Assembly: GCA_004143945.1 (NCBI GenBank) | Contig: SEHB01000001.1 | Span: 372,001 to 436,000 of the forward strand | DNA length: 64,000 bases | Source: Lysobacteraceae bacterium | Lineage (GTDB): Bacteria; Pseudomonadota; Gammaproteobacteria; Xanthomonadales; Rhodanobacteraceae | Reading direction: 5' to 3' | In this document: piece after piece, positions 33,760 through 57,468 of the stretch | Layout: each line of letters begins with the position of its first letter | Numbering within the stretch: the stretch's first letter is position 1 | Made by a program: the position numbers and the translations under genes | Notes under the pieces: generated by a model | Told to the model about the DNA's origin: nothing | The model's database searches: none | The model's input: only the letters and a program-made list of their open reading frames with translations

Positions 33760-36162
33760 TCACGCGACACGCACCTTGCCGAGCCGCAGCGCGTTGCCCA
33801 CGACCGACACCGAGCTGAGGCTCATCGCGAGCGCCGCGATCATCGGACTCAGCAGCAGGCCGAACACGGGATACAACAGTCCCGCGGCGACCGGTACGCC
33901 GAGCGCGTTGTAGAGGAAGGCGAAGGCGAGGTTCTGCTTCATGTTCGCGACGGTGGCATCCGAGAGCGAGCGCGCACGCACGATGCCACGCAGGTCGCCC
34001 TTTACGAGCGTGACCTGCGCGCTCGACATCGCGACGTCGGTGCCGGTGCCCATCGCGATGCCGATGTCGGCGCCGGCGAGTGCCGGCGCGTCATTGATGC
34101 CGTCGCCTGCCATCGCGACCTTGCGGCCTTCGGACTTGAGCCGTTGCACCAGCGCGGCCTTGTCCTGCGGGCGTACCTCCCCATGCACTTCGTCGATGCC
34201 GAGCTGGCGCGCCACTGCCTGCGCCGTGGCGACGCCGTCGCCGGTGGCCATCACGATGCGCAGGCCTGCCGCTTTCAGCGCGGCGATCGCGTCGGGCGTG
34301 GAGGCCTTGATCGGATCGGCGACGGCGACCAGACCGGCCAGCGCTCCGTCGACCGCGAGGAACATCACGCTCGCACCCTCACGACGCAGTGCGTCGGCCT
34401 GGTCGCGTAGCGCGTCCGCATCCACGCCGTGCTCGCGCATCAGTTCGGTATTGCCGATCGCGAGGAGTCGACCGCCGACCGCTCCGCGCACGCCGATGCC
34501 GGTGGCAGACTCGAACCCTTCAGCCGCCTGCAGCACGAGGCCGCGACGACGCGCCTCGGCGACGATCGCCTCTGCAAGCGGGTGTTCGCTGCCCTGGTCG
34601 AGACTCGCCGCGAGCTGCAGCACGTATTCCTCGGAGTATCCCGCCACGCCGATCGCCTGGCGGAACGCGGGCTTGCCTTCGGTCAGCGTGCCGGTCTTGT
34701 CGACGATCAGGGTGTCGATCCTGCGGAAGTTCTCGATCGCCTCCGCATCGCGGAACAGCACGCCGACGTGGGCCGCGCGTCCTGTCGCGACCATGATCGA
34801 CATCGGCGTGGCGAGTCCGAGCGCGCACGGGCAGGCGATGATCAGCACCGAGACCGCGTTCAGCACCGCATAGGTCCACGAGGGATCGGGACCGAAGAAT
34901 CCCCACGCGACGAACGTCGCGACGGCCGCCGCGAGCACCGCGAGCACGAACCAGAACGCAACCTTGTCGGCCATGCGCTGCATCGGCGCGCGCGAGCGCT
35001 GCGCCTGCGCGACGAGCTGCACGATCTGCGCGAGCACCGTATGCGAACCGACCTTCTCGGCGCGGATCACGAGGCTGCCGGTGCCGTTGAGCGTGGAGCC
35101 GATCACGCTCGCACCCACGTCCTTCGCGACCGGCATCGGTTCGCCGGTGAGCATCGATTCGTCGACATGGGAGCGGCCGTCGAGCACCTTGCCGTCGACC
35201 GGCACCTTCTCGCCGGGGCGCACGCGCAGGCGATCACCGACATGCACGTGCGAAAGCTCGATGTCCTCTTCGTTGCCGTCGTCGCGAATGCGGCGCGCGG
35301 TCTTGGGCGCCAAGCCGAGCAGCGCGCGGATCGCCGCGCCGGTCTTCGAGCGCGCGCGCAGTTCGAGCAGCTGCCCGAGCAGCGTAAGCGAGATGATCAC
35401 GGCGGCCGCCTCGAAATACACGCCGACGCGCCCGTGCTCGTGGAACGAGGCCGGGAAGACATCCGGCGCGATCGTGGCCACGACGCTGTAAGCGAACGCA
35501 GAGCCGACGCCGATGCCAATCAGCGTCCACATGTTGGGACTGCGGTTGCGGATCGATTGCACGCAGCGCTCGAAGAACGGCCAGCCAGCCCACAGCACCA
35601 CCGGCGTGGCGAGCACGAGTTCGAGCCAGGTGCGCGCACCGGTGGACAACCACGATTCCATGTAGTGGCCGAACATCGCGAGCACGAGCACGATGATCGT
35701 CAGCGGCAGCGTCCAGCGGAATCGTCGGCTGAAATCGACGAGTTCGGGATTGTCCCCTTCCTCGAGACTCGGCATGTCCGGCTCGAGCGCCATGCCGCAA
35801 ATCGGGCAGGTGCCCGGATGGTCTTGGCGGATCTCCGGGTGCATCGGACAGACGTACGCCGTGCCCGCGGGTGCAGCCGTTTCGCTTGCCGCAGGTTTCG
35901 GCGTCAGGAAGTGCGTGGGGTCGGCGATGAATTTCTCGCGACAGCGCGCCGAGCAGAAGTGGTACCGCGCGCCGCCGTGTTCGGCATGATGCGCGGTCGC
36001 ACCGGGGTCCACCGTCATGCCGCACACGGGATCGATGGCCTTGGGAGCACCCATCGCGTTTGCGCCGGAACTGCAGCAGTGGGCCTTGTCGGTGGATCCT
36101 GCCGTAGCCGGATGCGTGTGCGCGCCGTGTCCGTGCGCTTCGTGGTCGTGTGAGCGGTTCAT
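33760..36162 (-). CDS. copA: Copper-type P1B ATPase with YHS and heavy-metal-binding domains
   Basis: The 800-residue ATPase exports metal ions. It begins with a His-rich stretch ([13 protein letters not shown]), then a YHS domain (about 43-85, [10 protein letters not shown]...[11 protein letters not shown]) and a metal-binding motif CPMHPE...CPICGM (105-124). Membrane helices follow, with the transport signature [12 protein letters not shown] in helix 6, phosphorylation motif [10 protein letters not shown], actuator loop and [29 protein letters not shown] indicates Cu(I)/Ag(I); there is no classical GMxCxxC HMA domain. ATG 36162 has a GGAGG site and overlaps the MerR-like gene stop (ATGA), so both form one operon. 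Confidence 0.92.
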
Positions 36163-36557
36163 GCGTCCTCCGTCGACAAGGCCGCAAGGATCGGGCAAGT
36201 GCTCAGGTGGCCGTGACCCGGGCAGGCCGCCACCAGTTGCCGCAGGCCCTCGCGTACACGCGTGAGCTCCGCGATCTTGTGTTCGACATCCGCGAGCCTG
36301 GCGCTCGCTGCGTCGCGCACGCCGGACATGTCCTCGCCCTGGCGGCCGGAAAGCGCGAGCAATTCGCGAATCTCGCGCAGCGTGAACCCGAGCGCCTTCG
36401 CGCGGCGAACGAAGGTGAGCCGCGCGACATCGCCGTCGTCGTAGCTTCGGTAGCCGGAAGCATGCCGTGCGGGGGAGGGGAGGATGTCGTGGTTTTCGTA
36501 GTAGCGGATGGTGTCGATGGGAACACCGGTCCGTTTCGCGAGTTGACCGATCTGCAT
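36159..36557 (-). CDS. MerR-family heavy-metal-responsive regulator
   Basis: The 132-residue activator has an N-terminal MerR helix-turn-helix ([29 protein letters not shown], residues 1-29, continuing [36 protein letters not shown]), a dimerisation coiled coil, and a C-terminal metal loop [11 protein letters not shown] with two Cys nine positions apart, as in CueR/CadR/PbrR-type proteins. The His residues in the loop differ from standard CueR, so the exact metal (Cu, or a divalent ion) is uncertain. It is coupled to copA and is preceded by a dyad operator, so it should activate both itself and copA when metal is bound. Confidence 0.88.
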
Positions 36558-36588
36558 GGCAGCGATCCGATGGCGGGAGAGTGCGCCG

Positions 36589-36620
36589 AGTGTGCAGTCT
36601 GGACCATAGTCCAGAGTCAA
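36589..36620 (-). promoter_or_regulatory. MerR-type operator/promoter of the merR-copA operon
   Basis: On the minus strand TTGACT (36620-36615) is followed by a long spacer of 19-20 bases and a weak -10 (CACACT, 36594-36589). A perfect dyad, TCTGGAC-CATA-GTCCAGA on the plus strand, lies at 36598-36615 inside the spacer. An over-long spacer containing a dyad is the hallmark of MerR-family promoters. Confidence 0.8.
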
Positions 36621-36675
36621 GCCCCTTGCGAGGACGGCGGCGCGACTCGCTCCACGCGGCGCCGACCAGGCGCCT

Positions 36676-37257
36676 TCATTGGCCGTGATGCGCGAACACC
36701 GAGGTCGACCCATCGCGCGCAACCAGCTCCACCACATAGGGCTGCACGCGCCCGTCCGGCATCTCCATGCCCGGCGAACCGGCGGGCATGCCGGGAACCG
36801 CGAGTCCCTTCGCATCGGGCTTCTCGACGAGCAGCCGCTTCACGTCCTCCGCGGGTACGTGACCCTCGACGAAATACCCGCCGACTTCGGCGGTGTGGCA
36901 GGAGCCCTTGCCGTAGGGAACGCCGACGCGTTCCTTCGCGAGATTTATGTCCTGCACGTCGTGCACTTCGACCTCGAAGCCGGCCTTCTGCATGTGTTCG
37001 ACCCACAGATGGCAGCAGCCGCAGGTCGGGGATTTGGTGACCACGACCAGCGGCAGCGCAGCCGCGGCCGCTGGAGACGAGGATGGGATGGCCGATGCGC
37101 GAAGTGCACCCGTTTGCGGGGTTGTCGCGGATGTCGCCGGTGCAACTGAAGATCCTGCAACACCTGCTTGCGATGATGATGCGCCGTTGCACGCGGCGAG
37201 GCCGAGCCCGGCGACCAAGGCGAGCGATACGGAACCACGTAGAAGCAGCTTGTGCAT
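36676..37257 (-). CDS. DUF411 metal-binding lipoprotein
   Basis: The 193-residue protein has a signal peptide with lipobox LAAC (Cys at 23), a Ser/Ala/Thr-rich linker, and a DUF411 domain (about residues 70-193) containing KSPTCGCCHLWVEHMQ, CHTAEVGGYFVEGHVPAEDVKRLL and GLAVPGMPAGSPGME. The CGCC motif suggests metal or redox binding; DUF411 proteins are usually found with copper and other metal resistance genes. It precedes the merR-copA operon on the same strand with the operator between, so it is outside the main MerR promoter but probably part of the same resistance response. An AGGAG site precedes ATG 37257. Confidence 0.85.
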   Translation of the reverse strand: MHKLLLRGSVSLALVAGLGLAACNGASSSQAGVAGSSVAPATSATTPQTGALRASAIPSSSPAAAAALPLVVVTKSPTCGCCHLWVEHMQKAGFEVEVHDVQDINLAKERVGVPYGKGSCHTAEVGGYFVEGHVPAEDVKRLLVEKPDAKGLAVPGMPAGSPGMEMPDGRVQPYVVELVARDGSTSVFAHHGQ

Positions 37258-37520
37258 GTCGATCTCCTGGATCCAGAGGTTGAAACTGGCTACGCACCCG
37301 ATGCTTGGACAGGGAACGCCATCATGGGCGCCGCTCGGCGACGCGGCAAATGCGCGCACGGCACTGCGCCGGCGCGGCTTCCGGGTCGGAAGTGCGGATC
37401 TCGATCGATCAGCGATGACGCGCACCGGCGACGGGGAAGGGTGGTGCGGAGTGCATTGAACTCGTGCCTTTCCGAGAAGTCTGCGTATCCGTACCACAGA
37501 CGACATTGAGGAAGGATCGC

Positions 37521-37895: not shown

Positions 37896-38335
37896 AGTGC
37901 GGAAGTCAACGGCGCCAACGCGCGCATCAATACGACATTCTTCGCTGGGCCTGCGCCGCGCGTCCACGAGGAACCACCAGTACCGAAGTCCTTGGCGCAT
38001 ATCCTGCGCGATCCGATCAATCCCGGCCCGGTGTGGCCTGTAAGTGGCACGTCAGGGAGAGGCCGCGACCTATTTCTTGAATGCGCGTCACGCCGTTTCG
38101 TTCGATGCGCTCGAAGGCATCGCTGTCAATGCAGGAGCCGCAGGATGCATGCCTCGATCACGGAAACGGTGCGTAATGCCTATTATGTTAAATACTATTC
38201 CAAAGTAGCCAAGACTCCCGCGCCCCGATCGCAAGCCGGCCGCAAGCCTCCCACGATCCGGCTTGATCAAGGTCAGCCCACCCGCTCCCACCATCTGCTC
38301 CAATGCCGGCGCCCACCCAACACAGGTGACCGACC
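37896..38335. other. 440-base gap with no convincing gene
   Basis: Only short, poorly coding frames are present. An A+T-rich patch stands out at 38177-38205 (TATTATGTTAAATACTATTCC), unlike the surrounding high-GC sequence, and could contain a promoter or mark the edge of an acquired segment. The last 75 bases hold an FNR-like box and -10 for the downstream ATPase. Confidence 0.6.
38263..38304 (+). promoter_or_regulatory. FNR/ANR-like box and -10 before the P-type ATPase
   Basis: TTGAT-CAAG-GTCAG (38263-38276) matches 8 of 10 positions of the FNR/ANR consensus TTGAT-N4-ATCAA. TCCAAT (38299-38304) lies at the spacing expected for a class II site centred near -41.5, predicting a start near 38311. 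Confidence 0.5.
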
Positions 38336-40945
38336 TTGGCGACTCCCTCGTCAGCGAACAACGATCCGGACGGTCGTCGGGCGCCAGCGGCTCGACTCAT
38401 CGGCCTCACGACGGCGATCGCGGCCGAGCGGCTGCGCGAGCACGGGCCGAACGAATTGCCGAAGGCGCAACATCCAGGTCCATTTCGCATCGTCGTCGAG
38501 GTCCTCAAGGAACCGATGTTCCTGCTGCTCGTGCTCGCGGCCGCGATCTACCTCGTCGTCGGCGATGCGCTCGAAGGACTCGTCCTGTCGGCGTTCGCGG
38601 CGCTCAGCGTTGGACTGGTCGCCTGGCAGCAGTCCCGCAGCGAATCCGCGCTGGAGGCGCTGCGGTCGCTCGCCGCGCCGAGCGCGCGCGTCATGCGCGA
38701 TGGCAACGAACAGGTCGTCGCCGCGCGCGAGGTCGTGCCGGGCGACCTGCTGCTCGTCGGCGAAGGCGAACGTGTTGCCGCCGACGCACGCTTGCTGCGT
38801 GGCGACGGCGTGCAGGTCGACGAATCGCTGCTGAGCGGCGAATCGGTCCCGGTGCGCAAGCGCCCTTCGACGATCGACGAAACCGGATCGACCCGGCCGC
38901 TCTCACCCGGCGGCGACGACCAGCCATGGATCTATGGCGACACGCTCGTGGTCCAGGGCAACGGGATTGCGGAAGTGGTCGCGACCGGTACCGGGACGCA
39001 GGCGGGGCGCATCGGCGTGTCGCTCGCGACGATCCGTACCGAGCCCACCCTGCTCTCGCGTTCGATCCAGCGCATCGTGCGGCTGTTCGCGCTCGTCGCG
39101 CTGGTCGCGAGCGCGAGCGTGGTGCTGCTCAACGGGCTGCTGCGCGGCGAATGGCTGCAGGGGCTGCTGTCGGGAATCGCGCTCGCGATGGCGATGTTGC
39201 CCGAAGAGTTCCCGATGGTGCTGGTCGTGTTCGTCGCGTTGGGGGCGTGGCGGCTCGCGAAGGTCCGGGTGCTGGCGCGCCGCACCGCGGTGATCGAGGC
39301 GCTCGGCGCGGCCAGCGTGCTGTGCGTCGACAAGACCGGCACGCTCACCGAGAACCGGCAACGCGTGTGCGTGCTCGAAGCCGCGCAGGCGCAATGGAAT
39401 GCCGATGGCGACAGTGGCGGATTCGACCGGCGACTGCGCCGATTGCTCGAAGTCGCCGCACTCGCGTCCGCGCGCAGCGCCTACGACCCTCTCGACGCGG
39501 CGATCGGCAACCTCGCGACCCGCCTGCTCGACGAGACGGAACGCCACGACCGATGGCAGTTGCTGCGCGAGTTCGGGCTCACCGCCGCGCGCCCGCTGGT
39601 CGCACGCACGTGGCAGGCACCCGATGGCACCGCGATGGTGGCGGCGAAAGGCGCGCCCGAGGCGATCGCGGCACTGTGCAACGTGTCGGAAGAGCGGCGT
39701 GCGACGCTGTTCGCGCGCGTCGAGGCGCTCGCCGCGGACGGCCTGCGTGTGCTCGCGGTGGCTTCGGGGCCTGCGGATGCGTCCGCATTGCCCTGCGATG
39801 TCGCCGCGCTCGCGCTCGAGTTCGAAGGCCTCGTCGCGTTCCAGGATCCACTGCGCCCCGGTGCGCGCAACGCGGTCGAACACGCGCAGCGAGCCGGCAT
39901 CCGGGTCGTGATGATCACCGGCGACTACCCGGCCACCGCAAGTGCGATCGCGCGCGAAGCGGGCATCGCCGATGCCGCGCGCGTGCTCGATGGCCCCGCC
40001 CTGGATGCGCTCGACGACGACGCGTTCGTGGACGCGGTACGCGCGACCGCGGTGCACGCGCGCATCCGGCCCGAACAGAAGCTGCGCCTCGTCGAAGCGC
40101 TGAAGCGCGCTAGCGAAGTCGTCGCGATGACCGGCGACGGCGTGAACGACGCGCCCGCGCTGCGTGCCGCGCACATCGGCATCGCGATGGGCAAGCGCGG
40201 CACCGACGTCGCGCGCGAGTCGGCCGACATCGTGCTGCTCGACGACGATATCGGCCACGTAATCGACGGCGTGCGCATGGGCAGGCGCATCTTCGACAAC
40301 CTGCGCAAGGCAATGATCTACATCGCCGCGATCCACGTGCCGGTGGCCGGCCTCGCGTTGTTGCCGCTGCTGGTCGGGTTGCCGCCGCTGTTGATGCCGC
40401 TGCACGTCGTGCTGGTCGAGATGGTCATCGATCCGGTCTGTTCGATCGCGTTCGAGAACGAGCCGGAAGAAGCCGACATCATGCAGCGCCGCCCGCGCTC
40501 GCGGGAGGAGCCGCTGATGGCGGCGCCGCAGTTCATGCTCGCGCTGCTGCAGGGAGCGTTGCTGCTCTCCGCGACGCTCGCGCTGTACGCTGCGAGCCTG
40601 CGCATGGGCGAGACCGAGGACGTCGCACGCGCCCTCGCCTTCATCGCGCTGACCACGGGCAACCTGATGCTCGTGCGCGTCAACGGCGCGCGCGGCATGA
40701 CGGTGCCGCACCTTGCCGATGCGGGACACCGCGCGTACTGGATCGTGGCCGCGATCGCCTGCGCCACGGTCGGGCTGTGCATCACGCTGCCGGTGCTCGC
40801 GCGCGCGTTCGATTTCGCGGTGCCGGCGCCCGCGGACGCGATCGTCGCCGCGCTCGTCGGCGTCGCATCGGCGCTCGCGTTCGACCTGCTGAAGCCGCTG
40901 CGGCGCGTGCGCACCGCGCTCGGCAGCGGCGCACGCGGCGGCTGA
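38336..40945 (+). CDS. P2-like cation-transporting P-type ATPase
   Basis: The 869-residue ATPase has the cation-ATPase N-domain (LTTAIAAERLREHGPNELP), an actuator domain with VDESLLSGESVPV, phosphorylation site DKTGTLTEN near residue 335, and the hinge MTGDGVNDAPALRAAHIGIAMGKRGTDVARESADIVLLDDD. Eight or more membrane helices fit. In helix 4 the usual Ca/Na-type PEGLP is replaced by PEEFP, so the ion is not predictable. The start is TTG at 38336, supported by AGGTG seven bases upstream; no in-frame ATG lies nearby. Location beside stress proteins and an FNR-like box suggests induction at low oxygen. Confidence 0.88.
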   Translation: MATPSSANNDPDGRRAPAARLIGLTTAIAAERLREHGPNELPKAQHPGPFRIVVEVLKEPMFLLLVLAAAIYLVVGDALEGLVLSAFAALSVGLVAWQQSRSESALEALRSLAAPSARVMRDGNEQVVAAREVVPGDLLLVGEGERVAADARLLRGDGVQVDESLLSGESVPVRKRPSTIDETGSTRPLSPGGDDQPWIYGDTLVVQGNGIAEVVATGTGTQAGRIGVSLATIRTEPTLLSRSIQRIVRLFALVALVASASVVLLNGLLRGEWLQGLLSGIALAMAMLPEEFPMVLVVFVALGAWRLAKVRVLARRTAVIEALGAASVLCVDKTGTLTENRQRVCVLEAAQAQWNADGDSGGFDRRLRRLLEVAALASARSAYDPLDAAIGNLATRLLDETERHDRWQLLREFGLTAARPLVARTWQAPDGTAMVAAKGAPEAIAALCNVSEERRATLFARVEALAADGLRVLAVASGPADASALPCDVAALALEFEGLVAFQDPLRPGARNAVEHAQRAGIRVVMITGDYPATASAIAREAGIADAARVLDGPALDALDDDAFVDAVRATAVHARIRPEQKLRLVEALKRASEVVAMTGDGVNDAPALRAAHIGIAMGKRGTDVARESADIVLLDDDIGHVIDGVRMGRRIFDNLRKAMIYIAAIHVPVAGLALLPLLVGLPPLLMPLHVVLVEMVIDPVCSIAFENEPEEADIMQRRPRSREEPLMAAPQFMLALLQGALLLSATLALYAASLRMGETEDVARALAFIALTTGNLMLVRVNGARGMTVPHLADAGHRAYWIVAAIACATVGLCITLPVLARAFDFAVPAPADAIVAALVGVASALAFDLLKPLRRVRTALGSGARGG

Positions 40946-41050
40946 CGGCCAGGATCACGTGCCCTTCCCTGCCCGCCGCGCTGCGCGCGCGGCGCGGTTT
41001 GCTCCCGCACTTGCGCGGTGCGGACTCCCGCAGGCAACGAAGCGCGCGAT

Positions 41051-41488
41051 TCAGCGGTAGACGAGCACCGGCAGGCGGCTCTGAGTGAGGACCTTCTGGG
41101 TTTCGCTGCCGAGGAGTACGGCTTCGATGCCGCGTCGACCATGCGAAGCCATGAAGATCAGGTCGCAACCGCTTCGAGAGGCGACGGCGACGATCTCGCG
41201 CGCGACGTCGTCGCCTGTCACATGCAGGCCGTCACAGGCGACGCCCGCGGCGTCGGCCGCGCGCCTGGCCGACGCGAGTTCGGTGCGCGCGAACTCGAGC
41301 GCGGCCTGCTCGTAGTCCTCGCGATTGGCCTCGAGCAGGCCCATGATCACGTCGGAAGCATGGAAGCGCGCGATCACGTGCAGCGCGGTCACGCGCGCGC
41401 GGAGCGGGCGCGCAAGCTGGATGGCTGCGTCGACCGCGCGCTGCGACAGCACCGAGCCGTCGGTCGGGACCAGGATATGCGTGAACAT
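41051..41488 (-). CDS. Universal stress protein, single domain
   Basis: The 145-residue protein is a single UspA domain: N-terminal FTHILVPTDGSVLSQRAVDAAIQLA, central segment, and C-terminal nucleotide-binding region MASHGRRGIEAVLLGSETQKVL, which keeps H-G-x9-G-S but has Ala at the first Gly of the ATP-binding pattern. ATP binding is likely. It lies 74 bases after a two-domain Usp gene on the same strand, with a strong GGAGGAGG site, so the two probably form an operon. Usp proteins support survival under stress and anaerobiosis in related bacteria. Confidence 0.92.
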   Translation of the reverse strand: MFTHILVPTDGSVLSQRAVDAAIQLARPLRARVTALHVIARFHASDVIMGLLEANREDYEQAALEFARTELASARRAADAAGVACDGLHVTGDDVAREIVAVASRSGCDLIFMASHGRRGIEAVLLGSETQKVLTQSRLPVLVYR

Positions 41489-41562
41489 CGGTGCCTCCTC
41501 CGTTTGCGTGGCCCTGCCTCGTTGCATGGCGCAGCGTAGCGCGTCCGCGGCAGGCGCGGACG

Positions 41563-42387
41563 TCAGCGGTGCAACAGCACCGGCATGTCCGCTTCATGCA
41601 GCACGTGCCGCGTCGCGCCGCCGAATGCCCATTCGGACAGGCGACTGCGGCCGTATGCGCCCATCACGAGCAGGTCGCACCGCGCGCTTCCGGCCGCTTC
41701 GAGCAAGGCGCTGCCCGCTTCGTCTTCGCCTGCATCGATGAAGGCATGCTCCGGCGTGATCCCGTGCCGGTGCAGGTAAGCGAGGATGTCGAATCCGGGT
41801 TTCCAGCCCGGCGCGAGCGTCGCGGTGCGGCGCGTGTCCGCAATCAGGATGACCTGCGCGGCGCGCCGGAGCAGCGGCAGCGCGGCATGCACCGCCCGCA
41901 TCGCTTCGGGCGATGCGTTCCAGCCGATCGCGATGCGCTCGAGGCGCGCGTCCGATACGCGCGGCGGCACGAGGATGACCGGCATGCCTGCATGCAGCAC
42001 GAGCACGCCGAGTTCGTGCGGCGACGACCACGCGGTGCCTGCGCCGCGTTCGAGGACGAGCAGGTCGGCCCAGTCCGCGACGTGCGCGAGGACCGAAGGC
42101 GCGTGGCCCTCGGCGACCTGCCAACTCGCGTGCGCGACGCCGAGCGCGCGCATGTCGGCCGCGAACGTGCCGCCCGCTGCGATCGCGGCGGCTTCGGTCT
42201 GTCGCGCGGCTTCGATCATTTCGGTCAGCAGCGCGGGCACGCCGAACGGCGGCATCAGTTCCACGGGGGATGGGTGGATGTAGAGGCCGCTCAGCGCTGC
42301 TTCGAACTGCGCGCACAGCCGCGCTGCGTATTCGACGCCGCTGCCTTTGGGCGTGGTGCGTCCCGTGTACACGACGATCTCGCGCAT
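41563..42387 (-). CDS. Universal stress protein, tandem-domain
   Basis: The 274-residue protein has two Usp-like domains. The first (1-140, beginning MREIVVYTGRTTPKGSGVEYAARLC) is degenerate; the second contains RIAIGWNASPEAMRAVHAALPLL and the nucleotide loop GAYGRSRLSEWAFGGATRHVL. Its C-terminal half is clearly paralogous to the Usp at 43482. It diverges from the GNAT gene at 42536 with a 148-base region containing an FNR/ANR-type box. ATG 42387 is preferred because longer frames enter that regulatory region. Confidence 0.9.
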   Translation of the reverse strand: MREIVVYTGRTTPKGSGVEYAARLCAQFEAALSGLYIHPSPVELMPPFGVPALLTEMIEAARQTEAAAIAAGGTFAADMRALGVAHASWQVAEGHAPSVLAHVADWADLLVLERGAGTAWSSPHELGVLVLHAGMPVILVPPRVSDARLERIAIGWNASPEAMRAVHAALPLLRRAAQVILIADTRRTATLAPGWKPGFDILAYLHRHGITPEHAFIDAGEDEAGSALLEAAGSARCDLLVMGAYGRSRLSEWAFGGATRHVLHEADMPVLLHR

Positions 42388-42442
42388 GGCCAGGCTCCTC
42401 GTCCGCCGGTGGCCAGCGTCGCGCGGATGCGCTTCGGCGGCT

Positions 42443-42483
42443 TTGACGTCGATCAAGGCCGCGCGTGCGCGCGGCCCGATAAT
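42443..42483 (+). promoter_or_regulatory. FNR/ANR-type box with class II promoter geometry
   Basis: TTGAC-GTCG-ATCAA (42443-42456) matches 9 of 10 positions of the FNR/ANR consensus. GATAAT (42478-42483) is a near-consensus -10; the predicted start near 42490 puts the box centre at about -41, the standard class II distance. It should drive the GNAT gene at 42536 and, less certainly, the divergent Usp operon. Confidence 0.7.
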
Positions 42484-42535
42484 CACGCCGTGCCGTTCGA
42501 ATCCTCAAAGGCGCACCGCGCCGGGAGTTGCTGCC

Positions 42536-43456
42536 ATGGCCACACGCACCGCTACGAAGGCCGCCCGCAAGGGGCGCGCGACGAGCCCGGGAACACGCAA
42601 GCCGGCGACCTCCGGCAAGGCCGCCACGAAGGCCGCGCGCACCACGCCAACGCCGATGAAGAAGGCCACTCCAGCGAAGAAGGCCGCGCCGGTCAAGCGC
42701 GTGGCCGCGAAGAAGGCCCCGGCGAAAAAGACCGTGCCGCGCAAGTCCGTGGCCAAGTCGATGGGCAAGAACGCGCGGACGGCGAAGCCGGTATCGACCG
42801 CGACGACCGCGCGGCGCACCGCATCCACCACGCGTGCCGCGAAGTCGACTTCGTCCCGCCGTCCCGCGACGACCGCGAAGCCCGCGCGTGGCACGCGTGG
42901 TTCGGGCCCGGCGCGCCGCACGCAGGCGTCGGCGCCCGCGCTGCGCTGGACCGAAACCTTGCGCGATGGCACGCATGTGCTGATCCGACCGATCACGCGT
43001 GCCGACGCGGCGCTCGAACGCGCGTTCATCAGCCGGCTCTCGCCGCAATCGCGGCGACTGCGCTTCCTCGGCCAGATCGGCGAGCCCGGCGACGCGTTGA
43101 TTCGCAGCCTCGTCGACCTCGACTGGCGGCGCGACGCGGCCTTCATCGCACTTGTCCACCACGATGGCGCGAAGCGCGAGGTCGGCGTGAGCCGCTACAG
43201 CCTGAGCCCGGATGGCCGCAGTTGCGAATGCGCGGTGACCGTCGACGACGAATGGCACGGCCGCGGGCTTGCCGTGGTCCTGATGCGCCATCTGGTGGAA
43301 CTCGCGCGGTCGCGTGGCATCGGCACGATGTTCTCGATCGATGCGGGCGGCAACCAGCGCATGCGCGATCTCGCGCGCTACCTCGGATTCGCGTGCAAGC
43401 CTGACCCCGACGAACCGGGCCAGGTCATCCACACGCTCGCGCTCGCGGCGAAATGA
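42536..43456 (+). CDS. GNAT acetyltransferase with histone H1-like N-terminal tail
   Basis: A 306-residue protein in two parts. Residues 1 to about 140 are a low-complexity, highly basic region of Lys, Ala, Thr, Arg and Pro with repeats such as KKAAPVKRVAAKKAPAKK, like bacterial histone H1-like/AlgP proteins, and should bind nucleic acid. Residues 145-306 form a GNAT domain: LRDGTHVLIRPITRADAALERAFISRLSPQSRRLRFLG, and acetyl-CoA-binding DDEWHGRGLAVVLMRHLVELARSRGI. The latter resembles the acetyltransferase domain of Pat-type lysine acetyltransferases. GGGAG precedes the ATG. The FNR-type promoter and Usp neighbours suggest a low-oxygen role; the acetylation target is unknown. Confidence 0.85.
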   Translation: MATRTATKAARKGRATSPGTRKPATSGKAATKAARTTPTPMKKATPAKKAAPVKRVAAKKAPAKKTVPRKSVAKSMGKNARTAKPVSTATTARRTASTTRAAKSTSSRRPATTAKPARGTRGSGPARRTQASAPALRWTETLRDGTHVLIRPITRADAALERAFISRLSPQSRRLRFLGQIGEPGDALIRSLVDLDWRRDAAFIALVHHDGAKREVGVSRYSLSPDGRSCECAVTVDDEWHGRGLAVVLMRHLVELARSRGIGTMFSIDAGGNQRMRDLARYLGFACKPDPDEPGQVIHTLALAAK

Positions 43457-43481
43457 GCTTCCCGATACTTCGACGCGGCGC

Positions 43482-44315
43482 CTAGCGTGACAGCAGCAAC
43501 GGCAGCGCGGCGCGCTCGAGCACCGAGTGCGTCGCACCGCCGAACACGAACTCGCTGATCCGCGAACGACCCACCGCACCCATCACGAGCAGGTCGGCCC
43601 CGAGCGCGCTGCAACGTTCGAGCAGGACGGCACCGGCATCCACGCCCTCGCACTGCTCCAGCACCACCGGCACGCCGTAGCGCACGAGATGGCGCGCCAT
43701 GTCCGCTCCGGGCTCGTGACCGTACGCACCGCCGTTCGCCTCCGGCACCACGACCAGATGCACCTCGTTGGCGCCGACCAGGAACGGCATCGCGTCGGCG
43801 ATCGCGCGCGTGGCTTCGCGGCTTGCGTTCCAGCCGACGACGATGCGCCGCGCGCTGCGCTCGACCGGCCAGTCGATCGGCAGCAGCAGCGTGGGCCGTC
43901 CCGATGCGAAGATGAGGTCGCGCGAGAGGCCCAGCGTCGTCGCGCGGCGCGGATCCGGCCTGGAAGGGCCGATGACCGCGAGCGAGGCGTGGCGTGCATG
44001 CAGCATCAGCGCCTCGCCGACTTCGCCCTCGGAAACGCGCCATTCCCCGCTGATCTGGCGACGCTGGAGTTCGCGTTCGAAGGCTTGCCGCGCCTGCTGC
44101 ATGGCCTCGCCGACTTCGAGGTCGTGGTGCTTGAGCATGTCCGCGAGGCCACTGCCGGTTGCGAATCCCGCGTGGGGATCCAGTTCGAGCCGGTCGACCA
44201 CGAAGGTCGCAATCAGGTGCGCGCCCCACGCCTGGGCGAGTGCCGCCGCATGCGCGAGCCTCGCGTCGCGCCCTTGCGGTTCCTCGATGAATACGATCAG
44301 GTCTTTCGGAAGCAT
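43482..44315 (-). CDS. Universal stress protein, tandem-domain
   Basis: The 277-residue protein has two Usp domains: the first begins KDLIVFIEEPQGRDARLAHAAALAQAWGAHLIATFVVDRL, the second has RIVVGWNASREATRAIADAMPFL and the nucleotide loop GAVGRSRISEFVFGGATHSVL. It is a close relative of the protein encoded at 41563. It converges with the GNAT gene (25 bases between stops). Longer in-frame starts exist up to 44384; ATG 44315 (MLPKDLIVFIEE) begins at the first conserved strand. No FNR box is seen directly upstream. Confidence 0.88.
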   Translation of the reverse strand: MLPKDLIVFIEEPQGRDARLAHAAALAQAWGAHLIATFVVDRLELDPHAGFATGSGLADMLKHHDLEVGEAMQQARQAFERELQRRQISGEWRVSEGEVGEALMLHARHASLAVIGPSRPDPRRATTLGLSRDLIFASGRPTLLLPIDWPVERSARRIVVGWNASREATRAIADAMPFLVGANEVHLVVVPEANGGAYGHEPGADMARHLVRYGVPVVLEQCEGVDAGAVLLERCSALGADLLVMGAVGRSRISEFVFGGATHSVLERAALPLLLSR

Positions 44316-44393
44316 CACGGCGCCCCGGTCAGGCATCCTGCGAAGGTCCACGTGGCCTGCTGCGGCCCCGTTCGCGCGCATCATGCACGCCGC

Positions 44394-45167
44394 TCAGAAC
44401 ACCCACAATGCCGAGAGCAGCCAGCGCGATGGCTCGCGCATCGGAAACCATGCCGAAGACGAAGCGCCGTACGGCAGCTGCGAGCGGTCGTTCCATTGCC
44501 AGCTCGCATGCAGCGCGAGGTCACCGATGCCGTAACCGAATCCCGCGCTGCCGTAGTTGTAGTCGTCGAAACCCGTCTCCTGCAGCCAGGCGTGCCCCAC
44601 GCCGAGGTCCAGCGACAGGCGACCTGCGAGCGGCTGGTGGTAGTCGACGCCGAGCCAGGCGGCGGGGCCGTGGCGATAGACGCGATCCCAGCTGCCCGCG
44701 ACATCGGGCGACACCGCGATCGAAGCGACCCAGCGTCCGCGCCAGCCGATCGCCGCATTGAGTTCGTCGTAGCGCACGATCGCGCGATAGCGGTTGCCCG
44801 GCGAGTCATAGCGCGCGATGCCGACCTTCGCGGCCCAGTCCTCGCCGAGGCGCCAGCGCCGGTCGAGGTAAAGGGTCAGGCGCACCCCCGCGGACTGGCC
44901 CGGCGGGCGGTCAGCACTCGCACCGAGGCCGACGACCCATTCGGTTCCGAATCCGTAGTGGAGGTCGGCCAGCCAGGCCGGACGCCCCGCGCTGAGGCTG
45001 TAGCCGCGCTCGAGGTTGTCGTTCGCGACGCCGAGCGCGCCACCCCAACCCTGCGCGCCCACCGTGCCGGCGGCGAGCATCCCGCCGAGCATCGGCACGA
45101 CCACCCAGCCGCTCCTTGCGGCGCGAGGCGCGCGGGCGCAACCTCTGGGCGCCGTGGCGGAACACAT
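44394..45167 (-). CDS. TorF-like putative outer-membrane porin (TIGR02001-like)
   Basis: The 257-residue protein has a basic N-terminus, a hydrophobic export segment (WVVVPMLGGMLAAGTVGAQG) and a beta-rich mature region of alternating aromatic/hydrophobic strands: ALGVANDNLERGYSLSAGRPAWLADLHYGF, VRLTLYLDRRW, AKVGIARYD. It ends RWLLSALWVF with a C-terminal aromatic residue, as outer-membrane barrels do. This fits the Gcw_chp/TIGR02001 family, thought to be small outer-membrane proteins, but the exported substrate is unknown. It diverges from the ECF sigma gene with only 66 bases between starts and could be a member of that regulon. Confidence 0.65.
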   Translation of the reverse strand: MCSATAPRGCARAPRAARSGWVVVPMLGGMLAAGTVGAQGWGGALGVANDNLERGYSLSAGRPAWLADLHYGFGTEWVVGLGASADRPPGQSAGVRLTLYLDRRWRLGEDWAAKVGIARYDSPGNRYRAIVRYDELNAAIGWRGRWVASIAVSPDVAGSWDRVYRHGPAAWLGVDYHQPLAGRLSLDLGVGHAWLQETGFDDYNYGSAGFGYGIGDLALHASWQWNDRSQLPYGASSSAWFPMREPSRWLLSALWVF

Positions 45168-45233
45168 GCACGACACCCGCCGGCAGGCGCCGAGGCGATG
45201 GGCAACGTGAGCGATGCAGTGAAGGTTCGTCAG

Positions 45234-45848
45234 ATGCGTGCGCCCCATGGGCCGGATCATGCCATGGAGGAGGCGCGCGATATCGACTGGTTGCACGCAG
45301 TCGCGAACGGCGACCGCAAGGCGTTCGAACGCCTGTACCTGCGTTACCACGCCCGCCTCTCGCGCTTCCTCGCGCGGCATGCGCTGCAGCGCCACCAGGT
45401 CGACGAAGTCATCAACGAGACGATGTGGGTCGTGTGGCGCACCGCGGGCGATTTCCGCGGGGAATCGAAGGTCGGAACGTGGATCATCGGTATCGCTTAT
45501 CGCTGTTTTCTCAAGATGTTGCGCGATACTCCTGCAGTCTTTTCTCCTGCAGGTGCAACCGCCACGGAAGCAGACGAGAGCCCCGGACCCGACGAGACGG
45601 AGGCGCGCGAGACGCGCGACTGGGTGCGGCGCGGGCTCGCGCTGCTGCCGGTCGAGCAACGCCTGACGATGGAACTCGTGTACTACCTCGGCCAATCCTA
45701 TGAAGAGGTCGCGCGGATCATGGAATGTGCGGTTGGCACTGTGAAGGCACGCATGTTCCATGCGCGCGTGAGGCTGCGCAGCAGCCTTCCGGGACTCGGC
45801 GGCGAGCTCGCGCGCCTGCCCCTAGAACCCGCCGGAGAATCGCGATGA
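45234..45848 (+). CDS. ECF RNA polymerase sigma factor
   Basis: The 204-residue protein has sigma region 2 (FERLYLRYHARLSRFLARHAL...VDEVINETMWVVWRTAGDFRGESKVGTWIIGIAYRCFLKMLR, about residues 32-95) and region 4 (LALLPVEQRLTMELVYYLGQSYEEVARIMECAVGTVKARMFHARVRLRSSL). ATG 45234 is chosen because GAAGG is eight bases upstream; ATG 45198 and 45264 are alternatives. The stop overlaps the anti-sigma gene (ATGA), so it is held in check by its neighbour. It begins a coupled operon sigma-anti-sigma-subtilase. Confidence 0.93.
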   Translation: MRAPHGPDHAMEEARDIDWLHAVANGDRKAFERLYLRYHARLSRFLARHALQRHQVDEVINETMWVVWRTAGDFRGESKVGTWIIGIAYRCFLKMLRDTPAVFSPAGATATEADESPGPDETEARETRDWVRRGLALLPVEQRLTMELVYYLGQSYEEVARIMECAVGTVKARMFHARVRLRSSLPGLGGELARLPLEPAGESR

Positions 45849-46534
45849 CCGTGCAGGACCTCTCGCACCAGCGCGCCTGGGACCTGATTCCGCTCGCGAT
45901 CAACGGAACGGCCCCCGCGCCCGAGCGCTCGTTCGTCGACGCGCACCTGCGCGACTGCGCCGATTGTCGCGACGAGTACGCATTCCAGCTGCGCCTGCAC
46001 GCCGGCATGCAGGAGACGCGGCTGGGGGACTCGGAAGCCGCCGGCGCCGCGCTCTCGCGCCTGCTGCGGTGCATCGACGAGGAAGATGTCGCCGCAACGC
46101 CTGCCGCGACGCCTGCCCCGTCTGCGCTGCGCGGCAGCCGGCGACGCCCGCGCAACCGCCAGGCGCGCCTGCTCGGTGCGGCCGTGGTCGCACAGGCGCT
46201 TGCGCTCGCCTTGCTCGGCGTGTCGCTGCTCGATCAGCGCACGCAGCCGGCGCCGACTCCACCTGCCGCAGGCTATGAAACCTTGAGCGCCGGCATGCGC
46301 GTGGCCGCGGCGACGATCCGGCTGGTGCCGTCGCCCGAGCTGCCACTCGCGCAGTTGCAGGCGCTGATCGCCGAACAGGGCTTGCGCGTGGTCGCGGTCA
46401 ATGCGGACGGAACGATCTATTCGCTCGCACCCGTGCCCTCGGGGACCGCGCGTCCGGCCGCGGCAACGATCGCGACGCTGCGCGCGCATGCGGGCGTGCT
46501 GCTGGCCGAGCCCGTGGCCGGAGCCGCTCAGTGA
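45845..46534 (+). CDS. Membrane anti-sigma factor with zinc-finger domain
   Basis: The 229-residue protein begins with a ZAS-type anti-sigma domain (DAHLRDCADCRDEYAF, the HxxxCxxC zinc motif near residues 33-40) that should bind the co-encoded sigma factor in the cytoplasm. A linker is followed by a transmembrane segment near residues 110-130 (LLGAAVVAQALALALLGVSLL) and a periplasmic domain of about 95 residues. Release of sigma would follow loss or proteolysis of this protein. It is coupled on both sides, by ATGA with the sigma factor and GTGA with the protease. Confidence 0.9.
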   Translation: MTVQDLSHQRAWDLIPLAINGTAPAPERSFVDAHLRDCADCRDEYAFQLRLHAGMQETRLGDSEAAGAALSRLLRCIDEEDVAATPAATPAPSALRGSRRRPRNRQARLLGAAVVAQALALALLGVSLLDQRTQPAPTPPAAGYETLSAGMRVAAATIRLVPSPELPLAQLQALIAEQGLRVVAVNADGTIYSLAPVPSGTARPAAATIATLRAHAGVLLAEPVAGAAQ

Positions 46535-47850
46535 AGGCGATGCGCGCGATCATCACTGCCGTCGGCGCGCTGGTCGCGCTGGGCTGCCTGTTCGCCGCGC
46601 CTCCGGTGCGCGCGTCATCGGACCCGGCTGCCGCCTCGCGCAGGATCGTGGTGGCGGTCGCGGACCGGCCCGATCCGGTCGCGCGCGCTGGATCGACGCC
46701 GCGCGGCTACGGTGGCCTGCCCGACTATGCGGGCAGCAGCCGCGCACGCTCGCTCGCCACCGCGCTGGCCGAGCAGCACCAGCTGCACGAAGTGTCCGCC
46801 TGGACGATCGAGGCATTGCGCCTGCGTTGCATGCTCTACGAACTTCCGGAAGGCCTCGAGCGCGACGCCACGCTCGCAGCATTGCGGCGTGATCCGCGCG
46901 TGCGCCTCGCGCAGCCGCTCAACGAATTCGAGACGCTCGGTGCGGGCCTGCCGAGCAGGCCCGAGCCACTCCGATCCGCGCACAGTGCGGCCTACAATGA
47001 TCCCTACGTCGGGCTGCAACGCGGCTTCGACGCGATCGATGCCGCGTCGGCGCAGCGCTGGGCGCAGGGCGAAGGCGTCGAGATCGCGATCATCGACACC
47101 GCGCTGGATGCGAGCCATCCGGACCTGCGCAACCGCGTGGTCGAGCAGCGCGACCTCGCCGCGACCGCGCCGCGCCCGGACGCGAACGACCGCCACGGAA
47201 CTGAAGTGGCCGGCGTGATTGCCGCGGTCGCGAACAACGAGCTCGGCATCGTCGGCGTCGCGCCCGCCGCGAGATTGCACGCGTACCGCGCGTGCTGGAC
47301 CGTCGACGCCTCCGGCAAGGCGCGCTGCGACAGCTACACGCTGGCGCTCGCCCTCGGCGCAGCGATCGACGCCGGCGCCGACATCATCAATCTCAGCCTC
47401 GGCGGCCCGAGCGACCTGCTGCTGACCGAACTCACGACCCATGCACTCGAGCGCGGCGTCCGGGTCGTCGGTGCGGTACCTCCGGACGGCCGCCTGGACG
47501 GCTTTCCGGTGGACATCCCGGGGGTGATCGCGGTGCGTGCAGTCGGCGATTCGCCGGCCCCGTCGGCGATCACCGCGCCGGGTCGGGACATCCTCACGCT
47601 CGAACCCGGCGGCCATTACGATTTCGCGTCGGGCAGTTCGCTCGCGGCCGCGCACGTCAGCGGCGCGCTCGCACTGCTGCTCGAACTGCGACCGCGCCTC
47701 GACCATGCGGAACTGCTCGCACTGCTGCGTGGTGCGCAGCCGGGACCCGAGGCTTCGTTCGATGTCTGCCGTGCGGTCACCGCGGTCAGGCACGATGCCG
47801 CGTGCCGCGCCCCTGTGCACGCGCCGCTGGCATCATCCGCTTCGCCATGA
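46531..47850 (+). CDS. Exported S8 family serine peptidase (subtilase)
   Basis: The 439-residue protein has a signal peptide (AIITAVGALVALGCLFAAPPVRA), an N-terminal propeptide-like segment, and a subtilisin catalytic domain from about residue 160. The triad is Asp in IAIIDTALDASHPDL, His in NDRHGTEVAGVIAAV and Ser in ASGSSLAAAHVSGALALLLEL. It should be an extracytoplasmic protease. Start is GTG 46531 overlapping the anti-sigma stop; ATG 46540 is an alternative. Co-transcription with an ECF sigma/anti-sigma pair suggests it is a pathway output or that it processes the anti-sigma; neither is shown by the sequence. Confidence 0.88.
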   Translation: MKAMRAIITAVGALVALGCLFAAPPVRASSDPAAASRRIVVAVADRPDPVARAGSTPRGYGGLPDYAGSSRARSLATALAEQHQLHEVSAWTIEALRLRCMLYELPEGLERDATLAALRRDPRVRLAQPLNEFETLGAGLPSRPEPLRSAHSAAYNDPYVGLQRGFDAIDAASAQRWAQGEGVEIAIIDTALDASHPDLRNRVVEQRDLAATAPRPDANDRHGTEVAGVIAAVANNELGIVGVAPAARLHAYRACWTVDASGKARCDSYTLALALGAAIDAGADIINLSLGGPSDLLLTELTTHALERGVRVVGAVPPDGRLDGFPVDIPGVIAVRAVGDSPAPSAITAPGRDILTLEPGGHYDFASGSSLAAAHVSGALALLLELRPRLDHAELLALLRGAQPGPEASFDVCRAVTAVRHDAACRAPVHAPLASSASP

Positions 47851-54930: not shown

Positions 54931-57468
54931 ATGAAGCTTCCGTTCTCGCTCGGCAAACCCCGTTGGCAATCGAAGGATGCGGCCGTGCGCCGCGCGGCCG
55001 TGGTGGCCGACGACGATGGCGACCTGCTCGCGAACCTCGGCCGCATCGCGCGCGACGACGCCGATCCGGGCGTGCGCATCGCCGCGATGAAGCGGCTCGC
55101 CGATCCCGGCATCGCGCAGGGTCTCGCGCGCGACGACCTCGATGCAGGCGTGCGCGCGCAGGCACTCGCGCTCTGGCTCGACCTGCTGACCGGGCGCCAC
55201 GCGGGCGCGCCGACGCTGGTCGAGCGCACGCGCCTGCTGCGCGCGCAGGACGAGGCACCGACGATCGAGCACGTCGCCCGCCACGCGCGCGAGCCGGAAC
55301 TGCGCGCAGCCGCGCTCGAGCGCGCCACGCGGCCCGCGTTCCTGCTCGAGCGCGCGCTCGAGGAAGCCGACGCAAGCCTGCGCACCGCGCTGGTCGGCCG
55401 CATCGACAACGAGGGCATGCTGCAGCGGCTGGCCGAGCGCACGCGCAAGTCGGACAAGACCGTCAACCGACTCGCACGCGAGCGCGTCGAGGCGTTGCGC
55501 ATCGCGCGCGGCGATGCCGCGATGCTCGAACTGCGCGCGCGCCAGCTGTGCGAGCGGCTCGAGCAGCTCGTGCGTGATCCTGCCTCGGCCGATGAGCGCG
55601 ACGTGCTCGCGCAGTGGACGCCGATCGCGGAAGCCGCACCCTCGCAATTGCGCGCGCGTTTCGAAGCCGCGCGCTCACTGCTCGTGGCGAGTCGCGAAGC
55701 GCCACGCGCGATGCGCGCGAGCGACGCACCCGCGCTCGTGGCGACAGCGTCCGGATCGCCGGAAGTCGAACGCGCGTCGGAGGCGCAGCCGGCGCCAGCG
55801 GCACGCGATCGCGAAACCGACACCCAAGCCCAAGCCGAAGCCGAAGCCGATGATGTCGTCGCGCCGCTGCTCGCACAGGCGCGCTTCGCGGCCTCGGTCG
55901 ACGAGGCGCGCGCGGCACAGCGCCAGCAGCGCGAGCAGCAGCAGGCGCTCCTGCACGAATTCGGCGAAGCGCTGCGCGCGTGCGATGCCGCGCTCGAGCG
56001 AGGCGCGAGCGCTGAGGCGCACGCAGCGCATGCGCGCGTCGCCGCACTGCGCACGCGCATCGACGGTGCATTGCCGAAGGCGCTGGCCGAGTTGCTGCAC
56101 GGGGTCGAGGCGCGCCACGCCGAACTCAGTCGCTGGCAGTTCTGGGCCGACAACGAACGCCGCCGCCAGATCTGCGAGGAAATCGAAGCCGTCGCTGCGG
56201 CCGCGCTGCATCCCGATGCGGTCGCGGCGAAGGTCCGCGATGCGCAGGCCGAATGGACGCGCCTCGACGCGGTCGAAGGTCCGCGCGGTCGCGGCGGCGA
56301 ACTGACCCGGCGCTTCCACGCTGCCTGCCGCGCCGCACTCGCGCCGGCGCAGGCCTACTTCCACAAGCGCAAGGAACTGCGCCAGACGCAGGCCGGCGCG
56401 ATCGATGACCTGCTCGCGCGGGTCGCCGCGCGCGTGGCGGACGAGACCGAGCCGGATGTTTCCGGCCTGCGCCGCGAAGCCGTGCAGGCGCTGCGCGAGC
56501 TCGACCGCGTCGAGCCGCGCGCGCGCAAGGCACTCGCGCAGCGGCTCAAGGACGCGCTCGACGCACTCGACGCGCGCCAGCGCAGGCGCGACGACGGCGT
56601 CGAACAGGCGAAGGCCGCGTTGATCGCCGAAGCCGAGACACTCGCCGACCAACTGCCGCGCGGCGCGGTCGCGGCCACGCGCGAGCTGCAGCAACGCTGG
56701 CAAGCCTGCGGCAATGGGCGCCGGTCGCGCGACCAGGCGCAGTGGAAGGCATTTCGCGCCGCACTCGATCGCGTGTACGAACGCCTCGACGGCGAACGCA
56801 CCCAGCGGCAGGCGCAGGACGCCGATTCGAAGGCGCGCGCGGAGGCGCTGTGCGTCGAACTCGAATCGCTCGCCGCGGGCGGAACGCCGGCCGAGCGCGG
56901 CGTGGTCGCGCGCATCGTCGAGGGCTGGAACGACCTGCGCTCGCGCGACGATTCACTCGCCAGGCGGTTTGCCGCCGCACGCGAGCACCTGCACGAAGTG
57001 GAGCGCAACGAGCAGCGGCGGCAGCGCCACCAGCGCTTCGACCGCTGGCGCGAGCGCGAAGTCCTGTGCGTCGCCGCCGAGCGCGGCGCGGAATCGCCCG
57101 AGGCGCTGCGGGCGCACTGGGACGCCGCCGCCGACGGCGGCATTGCGCTGCCGGTGCAATCGGCTCGCTTCGAGGCGGCGCTCGCGGGCACGCCGCTCGC
57201 AGCAGCCGATCCCGAGGCGCTGCATGGCCCGCTGCTCGAGCTCGAGCTGCTCGCGGGCATCGAGGCGCTGCCCGAAGACCGCGAACGGCGTCGCGAACTG
57301 CAGGTCGCGCGACTCGCGTCGCGCATGCGCGGCGTCGCCGCGCCTTCGCCGGCCGACGAACTGGTCGACCTGCTCGAGCGTCGCAGCGTACTCGGCGCAG
57401 GCACCGACGAGGCGATCGAGGCCCGCTTCGAGACCGCACTCGCGGCCGCGCTCGCCAGCCTGCCATGA
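54931..57468 (+). CDS. DUF349 domain protein
   Basis: The 845-residue protein starts with HEAT-like alpha repeats (residues 15-200, e.g. ARDDADPGVRIAAMKRLADPG), a low-complexity acidic linker near 280-310, and then several DUF349 repeats with conserved aromatic and charged residues (LQQRWQACGNGRRSRDQAQWKAFRAALDRVYERL; AEWTRLDAVEGPRGRGGELTRRFHAACRAAL). Long charged helices suggest coiled coil. Related proteins occur widely in proteobacteria; no enzymatic motif is visible and the function is not established. The stop overlaps calB (ATGA). Confidence 0.88.
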   Translation: MKLPFSLGKPRWQSKDAAVRRAAVVADDDGDLLANLGRIARDDADPGVRIAAMKRLADPGIAQGLARDDLDAGVRAQALALWLDLLTGRHAGAPTLVERTRLLRAQDEAPTIEHVARHAREPELRAAALERATRPAFLLERALEEADASLRTALVGRIDNEGMLQRLAERTRKSDKTVNRLARERVEALRIARGDAAMLELRARQLCERLEQLVRDPASADERDVLAQWTPIAEAAPSQLRARFEAARSLLVASREAPRAMRASDAPALVATASGSPEVERASEAQPAPAARDRETDTQAQAEAEADDVVAPLLAQARFAASVDEARAAQRQQREQQQALLHEFGEALRACDAALERGASAEAHAAHARVAALRTRIDGALPKALAELLHGVEARHAELSRWQFWADNERRRQICEEIEAVAAAALHPDAVAAKVRDAQAEWTRLDAVEGPRGRGGELTRRFHAACRAALAPAQAYFHKRKELRQTQAGAIDDLLARVAARVADETEPDVSGLRREAVQALRELDRVEPRARKALAQRLKDALDALDARQRRRDDGVEQAKAALIAEAETLADQLPRGAVAATRELQQRWQACGNGRRSRDQAQWKAFRAALDRVYERLDGERTQRQAQDADSKARAEALCVELESLAAGGTPAERGVVARIVEGWNDLRSRDDSLARRFAAAREHLHEVERNEQRRQRHQRFDRWREREVLCVAAERGAESPEALRAHWDAAADGGIALPVQSARFEAALAGTPLAAADPEALHGPLLELELLAGIEALPEDRERRRELQVARLASRMRGVAAPSPADELVDLLERRSVLGAGTDEAIEARFETALAAALASLP

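Follow-up and report, generated by a model that had tools for sequence, protein, structure and literature searches.

A predicted oxygen-limitation module of a Pat-type acetyltransferase, universal stress proteins and a P-type ATPase in a Rhodanobacteraceae genome

Gene block and its predicted FNR-type promoters

The window analysed here is a stretch of 64,000 nucleotides from a Lysobacteraceae bacterium of the family Rhodanobacteraceae (assembly GCA_004143945.1, contig SEHB01000001.1, positions 372,001 to 436,000), whose genome consists of 3.67 Mb in 29 contigs. Between window positions 38263 and 44315 lies a block of five genes, encoding a cation-transporting P-type ATPase, three universal stress proteins (Usp1, Usp2 and Usp3) and an acetyltransferase of the GNAT type with a long basic tail. 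By its sequence, the oxygen-limitation module predicted here is well supported, and the whole reading, in which the GNAT, the Usps and the ATPase are together placed under an FNR/Anr-type regulator, is considered likely. The features of the block, with gene starts refined by eye from the sequence and then checked, are the following (window coordinates).

38263..38276, + strand: FNR-type box with one mismatch, TTGATCAAGGTCAG; midpoint 66 bp upstream of the start of the ATPase gene
38299..38304, + strand: -10 candidate TCCAAT (4/6 letters of TATAAT); begins 29 bp from the centre of the ATPase box
38336..40945, + strand: P2-type cation-transporting P-type ATPase, 869 amino acids, TTG start; PEEFP in M4, DKTGT; E1-E2_ATPase and Cation_ATPase_N/C domains
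41051..41488, - strand: Usp1, single-domain universal stress protein, 145 amino acids; PF00582 at 1.5e-30 on a longer frame to 41527; start set by AGGAGG
41563..42387, - strand: Usp2, tandem universal stress protein, 274 amino acids; PF00582 at 1.2e-15
42443..42456, no strand assigned: exact FNR-type box, TTGACGTCGATCAA, between the divergent Usp2 and GNAT genes; midpoint 86 bp upstream of the start of GNAT and 62 bp upstream of that of Usp2
42478..42483, + strand: -10 element GATAAT (5/6), 28 bp from the centre of the 42443 box, facing the GNAT gene
42536..43456, + strand: Pat-type GNAT, whole protein, 306 amino acids
42536..42943, + strand: N-terminal tail of the GNAT, basic, predicted disordered, histone-H1-like in composition; 136 amino acids with 20 Lys, 17 Arg and no Asp or Glu
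42944..43456, + strand: Pat/PatZ-type GNAT domain by sequence and fold matches; Glu231 aligned with Glu235 of chain 4ava (Rv0998)
43482..44315, - strand: Usp3, tandem-length universal stress protein, 277 amino acids; no FNR-type box upstream

The five genes had been named in the initial annotation of this DNA, and the gene calls and domain matches confirm all of them, with PF00582 scores of 107.1, 58.8 and 52.9 bits for Usp1, Usp2 and Usp3 against a cut-off of 24. The ATPase, described there as a non-copper type, has the domain matches and motifs of a P2-type cation ATPase. Usp2 and Usp1 lie on the same strand with a gap of 74 bp and probably form one operon. The GNAT gene is divergent from this pair, and Usp3 is convergent with the GNAT gene from the opposite side.

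FNR-type boxes had been noted by the initial annotation in two upstream regions and are confirmed there, an exact one in the Usp2/GNAT gap and one with a mismatch before the ATPase gene. The former is the sole exact match of TTGAYN4RTCAA in the window. Throughout the genome the exact pattern occurs at nine sites, compared with one for a reversed-pattern control, and sites with zero or one mismatch number 169 against 66 for the control. Three of the other exact sites are placed as follows: 35 bp before the likely start of hemN (TIGR00538 above cut-off), 60 bp before a COX1-family gene that is followed by a FixO gene and hence belongs to a cbb3-type oxidase, and between the gene of an FNR homologue (about 250 bp away) and a divergent OmpW-family gene (about 60 bp), nearer to the latter. 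The 42443 box therefore sits in a small set with textbook FNR targets. Two further sites lie inside coding-looking frames (L169 and L172, the latter a glutaredoxin), and three have no explanation (L167, L168 and L173). One of these (L167:1569, at C17:149468 on the contig that also holds the window) is situated about 80 bp before what is probably the start of a small protein, which contains His, looks secreted, has no Pfam match and is not a familiar FNR target. A chance origin of the 42443 box was rejected on three grounds: the number of exact sites in the genome, the boxes of the relatives and the spacing of the -10 element. Matches to the looser pattern TTGATN4ATCAA with two mismatches were discarded as evidence: the window holds 15 of them against 5 expected, so such matching says little on single sites.

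The genome encodes two FNR homologues (L066 and L067), in whose translations, read by eye, a C-x2-C-x5-C cluster, a fourth Cys and an ETVSR recognition helix are present, and the NCBIfam Fnr model is the best one for both. Members of the Crp/Fnr family share similar boxes, and five Crp-type HTH matches occur in this genome. The boxes could thus serve another protein of the family, such as a Dnr-type sensor of nitric oxide or a CRP-like regulator, with a signal other than oxygen itself. This is judged very unlikely, since the exact boxes before hemN, the cbb3-type oxidase and the ompW-like gene beside fnr mark the usual FNR targets and two proteins with the Cys cluster are at hand.

In class II FNR promoters, the centre of the box lies about 41 bp before the transcription start, and the -10 element about 28–30 bp from the box centre. 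Such a layout is predicted from the sequence facing the GNAT gene and the ATPase gene, where the -10 elements stand at 28 and 29 bp, and not on the Usp2 side of the shared box. The same polarity appears when 57 distinct segments are aligned on the box: the -10 signal begins 28–29 bp from the centre on the GNAT-facing side only, with mean TATAAT matches of 2.02 and 2.44 at +28 and +29 versus 0.53–1.70 at other offsets, and of 1.10 and 1.03 on the side away from the GNAT gene. Because the -10 signal stands on the GNAT side and none fits on the Usp2 side, the 42443 box is best read as that of the GNAT gene; a second, Usp-facing use of it is possible. The ATPase box is backed by its 4/6 -10 candidate at the right spacing and by exact boxes before the ATPase genes of some relatives.

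Conservation in relatives and extent of the proposed regulon

Of 248 relatives of the GNAT in named genomes, the best 80 were kept; several of these loci end at contig ends, and in all conservation counts the loci and genomes are related by descent and do not represent independent events. An exact box within 600 bp of the domain lies upstream of the GNAT gene in 59 of the 80 loci, and in these its distance from the predicted ATG is below 300 bp, ranging from 33 to 192 bp; removal of identical domains leaves 57 of 78. In the 1.46 Mb covered by the 80 loci there are 270 exact boxes versus 0 reversed-pattern sites. A Usp match within 10 kb of the GNAT gene is present in 49 of the loci, and an ATPase match in 14, three of them at 30–32% identity. 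When the Pseudomonas loci are left out, the box is found in 52/66 and the nearby Usp match in 49/66, while in Pseudomonas an upstream box is present in 7 of 14 loci. The initial annotation had regarded a lack of conserved boxes or neighbourhood in relatives as refuting its proposal, and the conservation of both leaves that proposal unrefuted.

A count over 15 of 20 neighbourhoods, with genome sizes rounded, places 58 of the genomes' 341 boxes in 0.47% of their sequence, an enrichment of about 44-fold around the GNAT gene. This count leaves out second copies or distant matches, namely L061, L062 and L063 (0 boxes), L064 (4) and L065 (5). Other neighbours in the relatives include zinc alcohol dehydrogenases (L071, L088), a phosphoketolase (L073), Hsp20 (L148) and Crp/Fnr-type genes (L073, L148). 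In Pseudomonas citronellolis (L148:9080-10525), the GNAT gene comes immediately after a Crp/Fnr gene with Cx2Cx5C; an exact box separates the two, and the Hsp20 gene is near. In Pseudomonas jinjuensis (L125:7936-10546), the open frame of the GNAT starts 18 bp after an FtsH-type protease gene, which is itself preceded by an exact box. In Dokdonella fugitiva (L088), a box, the GNAT, a Usp and the ATPase occur together in a single stretch.

Several observations weigh against a module of this extent. First, the boxes are not universal: 21 of the 80 GNAT loci have no exact upstream box, including the tailed relative L075; the neighbourhoods G039 and G145, although among the 15 counted for enrichment, contain none; and no Usp match lies within 10 kb in any of the 14 Pseudomonas loci. 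Second, the promoters differ in quality. At FNR spacing, the shared box has a -10 of 2/6 letters at best on its Usp2 side, at least 4/6 letters are reached in just 16% (+28) and 30% (+29) of the 57 segments, and the region 44000-45300 upstream of Usp3 holds no site with two or fewer mismatches. The ATPase box, having a mismatch, is weak alone, with a chance of about 0.7% per 150 bp. Third, the linkage of the ATPase is loose, as matches at E<=1e-100 are present in 5/8 GNAT-bearing and 2/8 GNAT-free genomes of the same genus, and an exact box lies close upstream (within about 100 bp of the estimated start) in just 6 of 14 distinct strong-match ATPase loci. Fourth, both FNR homologues score below the NCBIfam Fnr cut-off (214.4 and 184 vs 228 bits). 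The literature on Pseudomonas aeruginosa adds two further points: anr mutants show raised Usps, an effect that depends on the stringent response (PMC8087004), and the P-type ATPase gene PA1429 carries a single mark in PMC8575079, in a column that could not be told. With Usp3 lacking a box, the Usp2 side lacking a -10 at FNR spacing and the ATPase box mismatched, the proposal of the initial annotation that all five genes form one regulon finds no support in that form.

The same three features would fit a narrower arrangement, in which the GNAT gene alone is a true FNR target. The Usps and the ATPase would then follow other signals and share a general stress or metal island with it. Such an island is suggested by a copper-type ATPase, a MerR-type regulator and a DUF411 protein next door (33760-37506), and the Pseudomonas relatives, half of them boxed, have the GNAT without a nearby Usp match. 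This arrangement is possible, if rather doubtful, because in the partly redundant loci of the relatives exact boxes within 300 bp precede 29/45 Usp1-type and 23/66 Usp2-type matches (0/2 for the Usp3 type), in addition to the six ATPase loci. The two most similar ATPase loci are both boxed (L056 at -56 and L077 at about -16), and in G152 an exact box stands before the ATPase and a Usp after it. The presence of the GNAT and the number of Usps also correlate within the genus: Usp-domain matches number 3–9 in each of eight genomes that contain the GNAT (E<=1e-30) and 0–2 in each of the eight that lack it. The chance of such a full separation would be 1 in 12870 if the genomes were independent, which they are not. 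Four of the 16 genomes are less than 90% complete, and the separation persists in the other 12.

Under the preferred reading of an oxygen-limitation module, a fall in oxygen would lead FNR to bind the 42443-42456 box and to activate a class II promoter for the GNAT gene, a step strongly supported by the sequence. Usp2-Usp1 would probably also be activated from the same palindrome, and the P2-type ATPase via the weaker box at 38263-38276. The predicted Pat-type lysine acetyltransferase would most likely acetylate proteins during oxygen shortage; as a guess, the neighbouring Usps are candidate substrates. Both the induction by low oxygen and the acetyltransferase activity are what we infer from the genes and their promoters. 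The ATPase would adjust a cation under low energy, and which cation is a guess. Among proteins of solved structure its best match is lmo0841, a calcium ATPase of Listeria, but the membrane motifs PEEFP and EMVIDP differ from those of Ca-ATPases.

Pat-type domain and basic tail of the acetyltransferase

The GNAT domain is closest, by sequence and by fold, to PatZ, Streptomyces lividans Pat and Rv0998. The top eight sequence matches and the top eight fold matches are all Pat/PatZ entries, with the PatZ/YfiQ proteins as the best-scoring relatives. Glu231 aligns with Glu235 of Rv0998 (4ava) and is invariant in 16/16 and 20/20 aligned rows. GNAT folds are promiscuous, and GNATs that act on small molecules or ribosomal proteins rank lower among the fold matches. 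The enzyme might thus acetylate a small molecule or a protein N-terminus instead of lysine, its tail just binding polyanions. This alternative is unlikely in view of the eight leading matches on each list and the aligned Glu, whose counterpart in MsPat, Glu234, is termed catalytic (PMC8556138). The sole NCBIfam match of the protein, acetyltransferase Pat, points the same way, though at 37.4 bits against a cut-off of 460.

Such a low score indicates that the protein is not a mycobacterial-type Pat with a cyclic AMP (cAMP) domain. The mycobacterial enzymes (Rv0998, MSMEG_5458) are related to it in the sequence and fold of the GNAT domain, including the aligned catalytic Glu. They carry a cAMP-binding domain, whereas the GNAT of the window has the basic tail and predicted FNR-type control instead. 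PatZ differs in another way: its chains run to about 880 residues and carry the GNAT domain at their C-terminus, and the large remaining part is missing from the protein of the window. By its sequence, the GNAT without a sensing domain is a type IV GNAT in the scheme given in passages of PMC8556138. Since there is no ligand-sensing domain, its control would therefore be transcriptional.

Residues 138-304 are for the most part modelled with confidence; those before are of low confidence and have no secondary structure. The tail has a net charge of +37 over 136 residues. It begins with an ATG after a purine-rich stretch, and its G+C content at third codon positions (GC3) is 0.88 vs 0.85 in the domain. 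The possibility of a mis-called start or a non-coding extension was rejected by this GC3 and by the Lys codons, 19 of which are AAG and one AAA. Being long, rich in Lys, Ala and Pro, poor in acidic residues and, according to the model, disordered, the tail is H1-like, a likeness that concerns its composition only. To this extent the H1-like tail described in the initial annotation is present, as a coding, acid-free extension.

Tails were counted by eye among the 80 relatives, with long stop-to-stop extensions, probably untranslated, excluded. Shorter basic tails (net +11 to +18) are present in L071, L073 and L075, which brings the proteins with a histone-H1-like tail to four, the GNAT of the window included; most other relatives seem to start about 10–40 residues before the domain. 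The four tailed proteins do not group as one clade on the tree of the domain, so that a single origin of the tail is unsupported: three changes are needed, a number as low in 31/500 shuffles, and bootstrap trees with a single tail change make up 0%. A metagenome-assembled genome of Rudaea (JARLJU010000173.1; L073 and L103) encodes two relatives of the GNAT separated by about 23 kb, of which only one has the basic tail.

As a guess, the basic tail would direct the enzyme to a polyanion such as DNA or RNA. A bolder scenario supposes that, within this lineage of Rhodanobacteraceae, a Pat-type GNAT induced by FNR gained an H1-like tail tethering it to the nucleoid or to RNA, so that oxygen limitation would result in the local acetylation of DNA-bound proteins, of its own tail and of the co-encoded Usps. 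It is distinctly unlikely; if true, it would describe a bacterial lysine acetyltransferase that is bound to chromatin and directly controlled by oxygen. For the chromatin acetylation proposed by the initial annotation no support was found in this analysis, and it is speculation. The basic tail makes the idea of a DNA-bound bacterial acetyltransferase directly testable.

Known low-oxygen regulons and neighbouring genes

One of the most similar gene sets is that of the Anr regulon of P. aeruginosa, which includes PA1429, the acetyltransferase gene PA5475, Usp genes, hemN and ccoN2. By their locus numbers these genes are scattered, whereas those of the window form one block. That PA5475 is the orthologue of the GNAT of the window is a lead only, based on the P. 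jinjuensis homologue, which comes after the FtsH-type protease gene much as PA5475 comes after PA5474. PA1429 and PA5475 are listed as genes of the Anr regulon (PMC8087004), and PA5475 together with uspL, uspM, uspN and uspO is marked as up by Anr and low oxygen (PMC8575079).

Other systems share parts of this set. In Herbaspirillum seropedicae, the genes activated by Fnr include two Usp genes, fixNOP and ompW1, which is a neighbour of fnr1 (PMC5934665). The order ompW-fnr-cbb3 is the same in the genome of the window, where it carries boxes; in the passages of that article on the Fnr regulon, a search by word finds no P-type ATPase, and the sole acetyltransferase is metabolic. In Myxococcus xanthus, the oxygen-related NmpRSTU regulon includes both a Usp and a P-type ATPase (PMC11841059); it differs in its NtrC-type control and in an ATPase tied to the copper supply of the cbb3 oxidase. 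In mycobacteria, MsPat acetylates a USP (PMC8556138), and Rv0998 acetylates the hypoxia regulator DosR (PMC5861037).

Usps and an acetyltransferase recur in low-oxygen regulons of proteobacteria. The lxa locus of Burkholderia cenocepacia extends over about 50 genes. It is induced by low oxygen and contains six Usps and metabolic genes (PMC6127331, PMC9104464); no Pat-type GNAT is named in the passages on it, while the block of the window has one. A protein acetyltransferase, BCAM2710, is found among the genes changed by micro-oxia in strain H111 (PMC3759415). The initial proposal thus matches an established kind of regulon, of which the block of the window is a compact variant. What is apparently new is the compact block itself and the histone-H1-like tail. 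No description of this gene block turned up in searches limited to open-licence PMC papers, and none of an H1-tailed GNAT in a search too small to claim absence. In the passages found on the proteobacterial low-oxygen regulons, no role of the acetyltransferase is stated. The block raises the question of whether oxygen limitation sets protein acetylation by transcribing a dedicated enzyme, with the Usps as substrates. With a Pat-type enzyme beside its likely partners in a compact arrangement and one readable promoter, and in a genus that is not known to be pathogenic, this question becomes testable.

Three minor observations concern the surroundings of the block in the window. In the adjoining copper-type block, the ATPase is a heavy-metal P-type ATPase with YHS and HMBD domains. 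At 45240-47850, genes for an ECF-type sigma factor, a zinc-finger anti-sigma-like protein and a subtilase lie consecutively. Further away, at 54931-57468, DUF349 matches are found in a protein of 845 amino acids.

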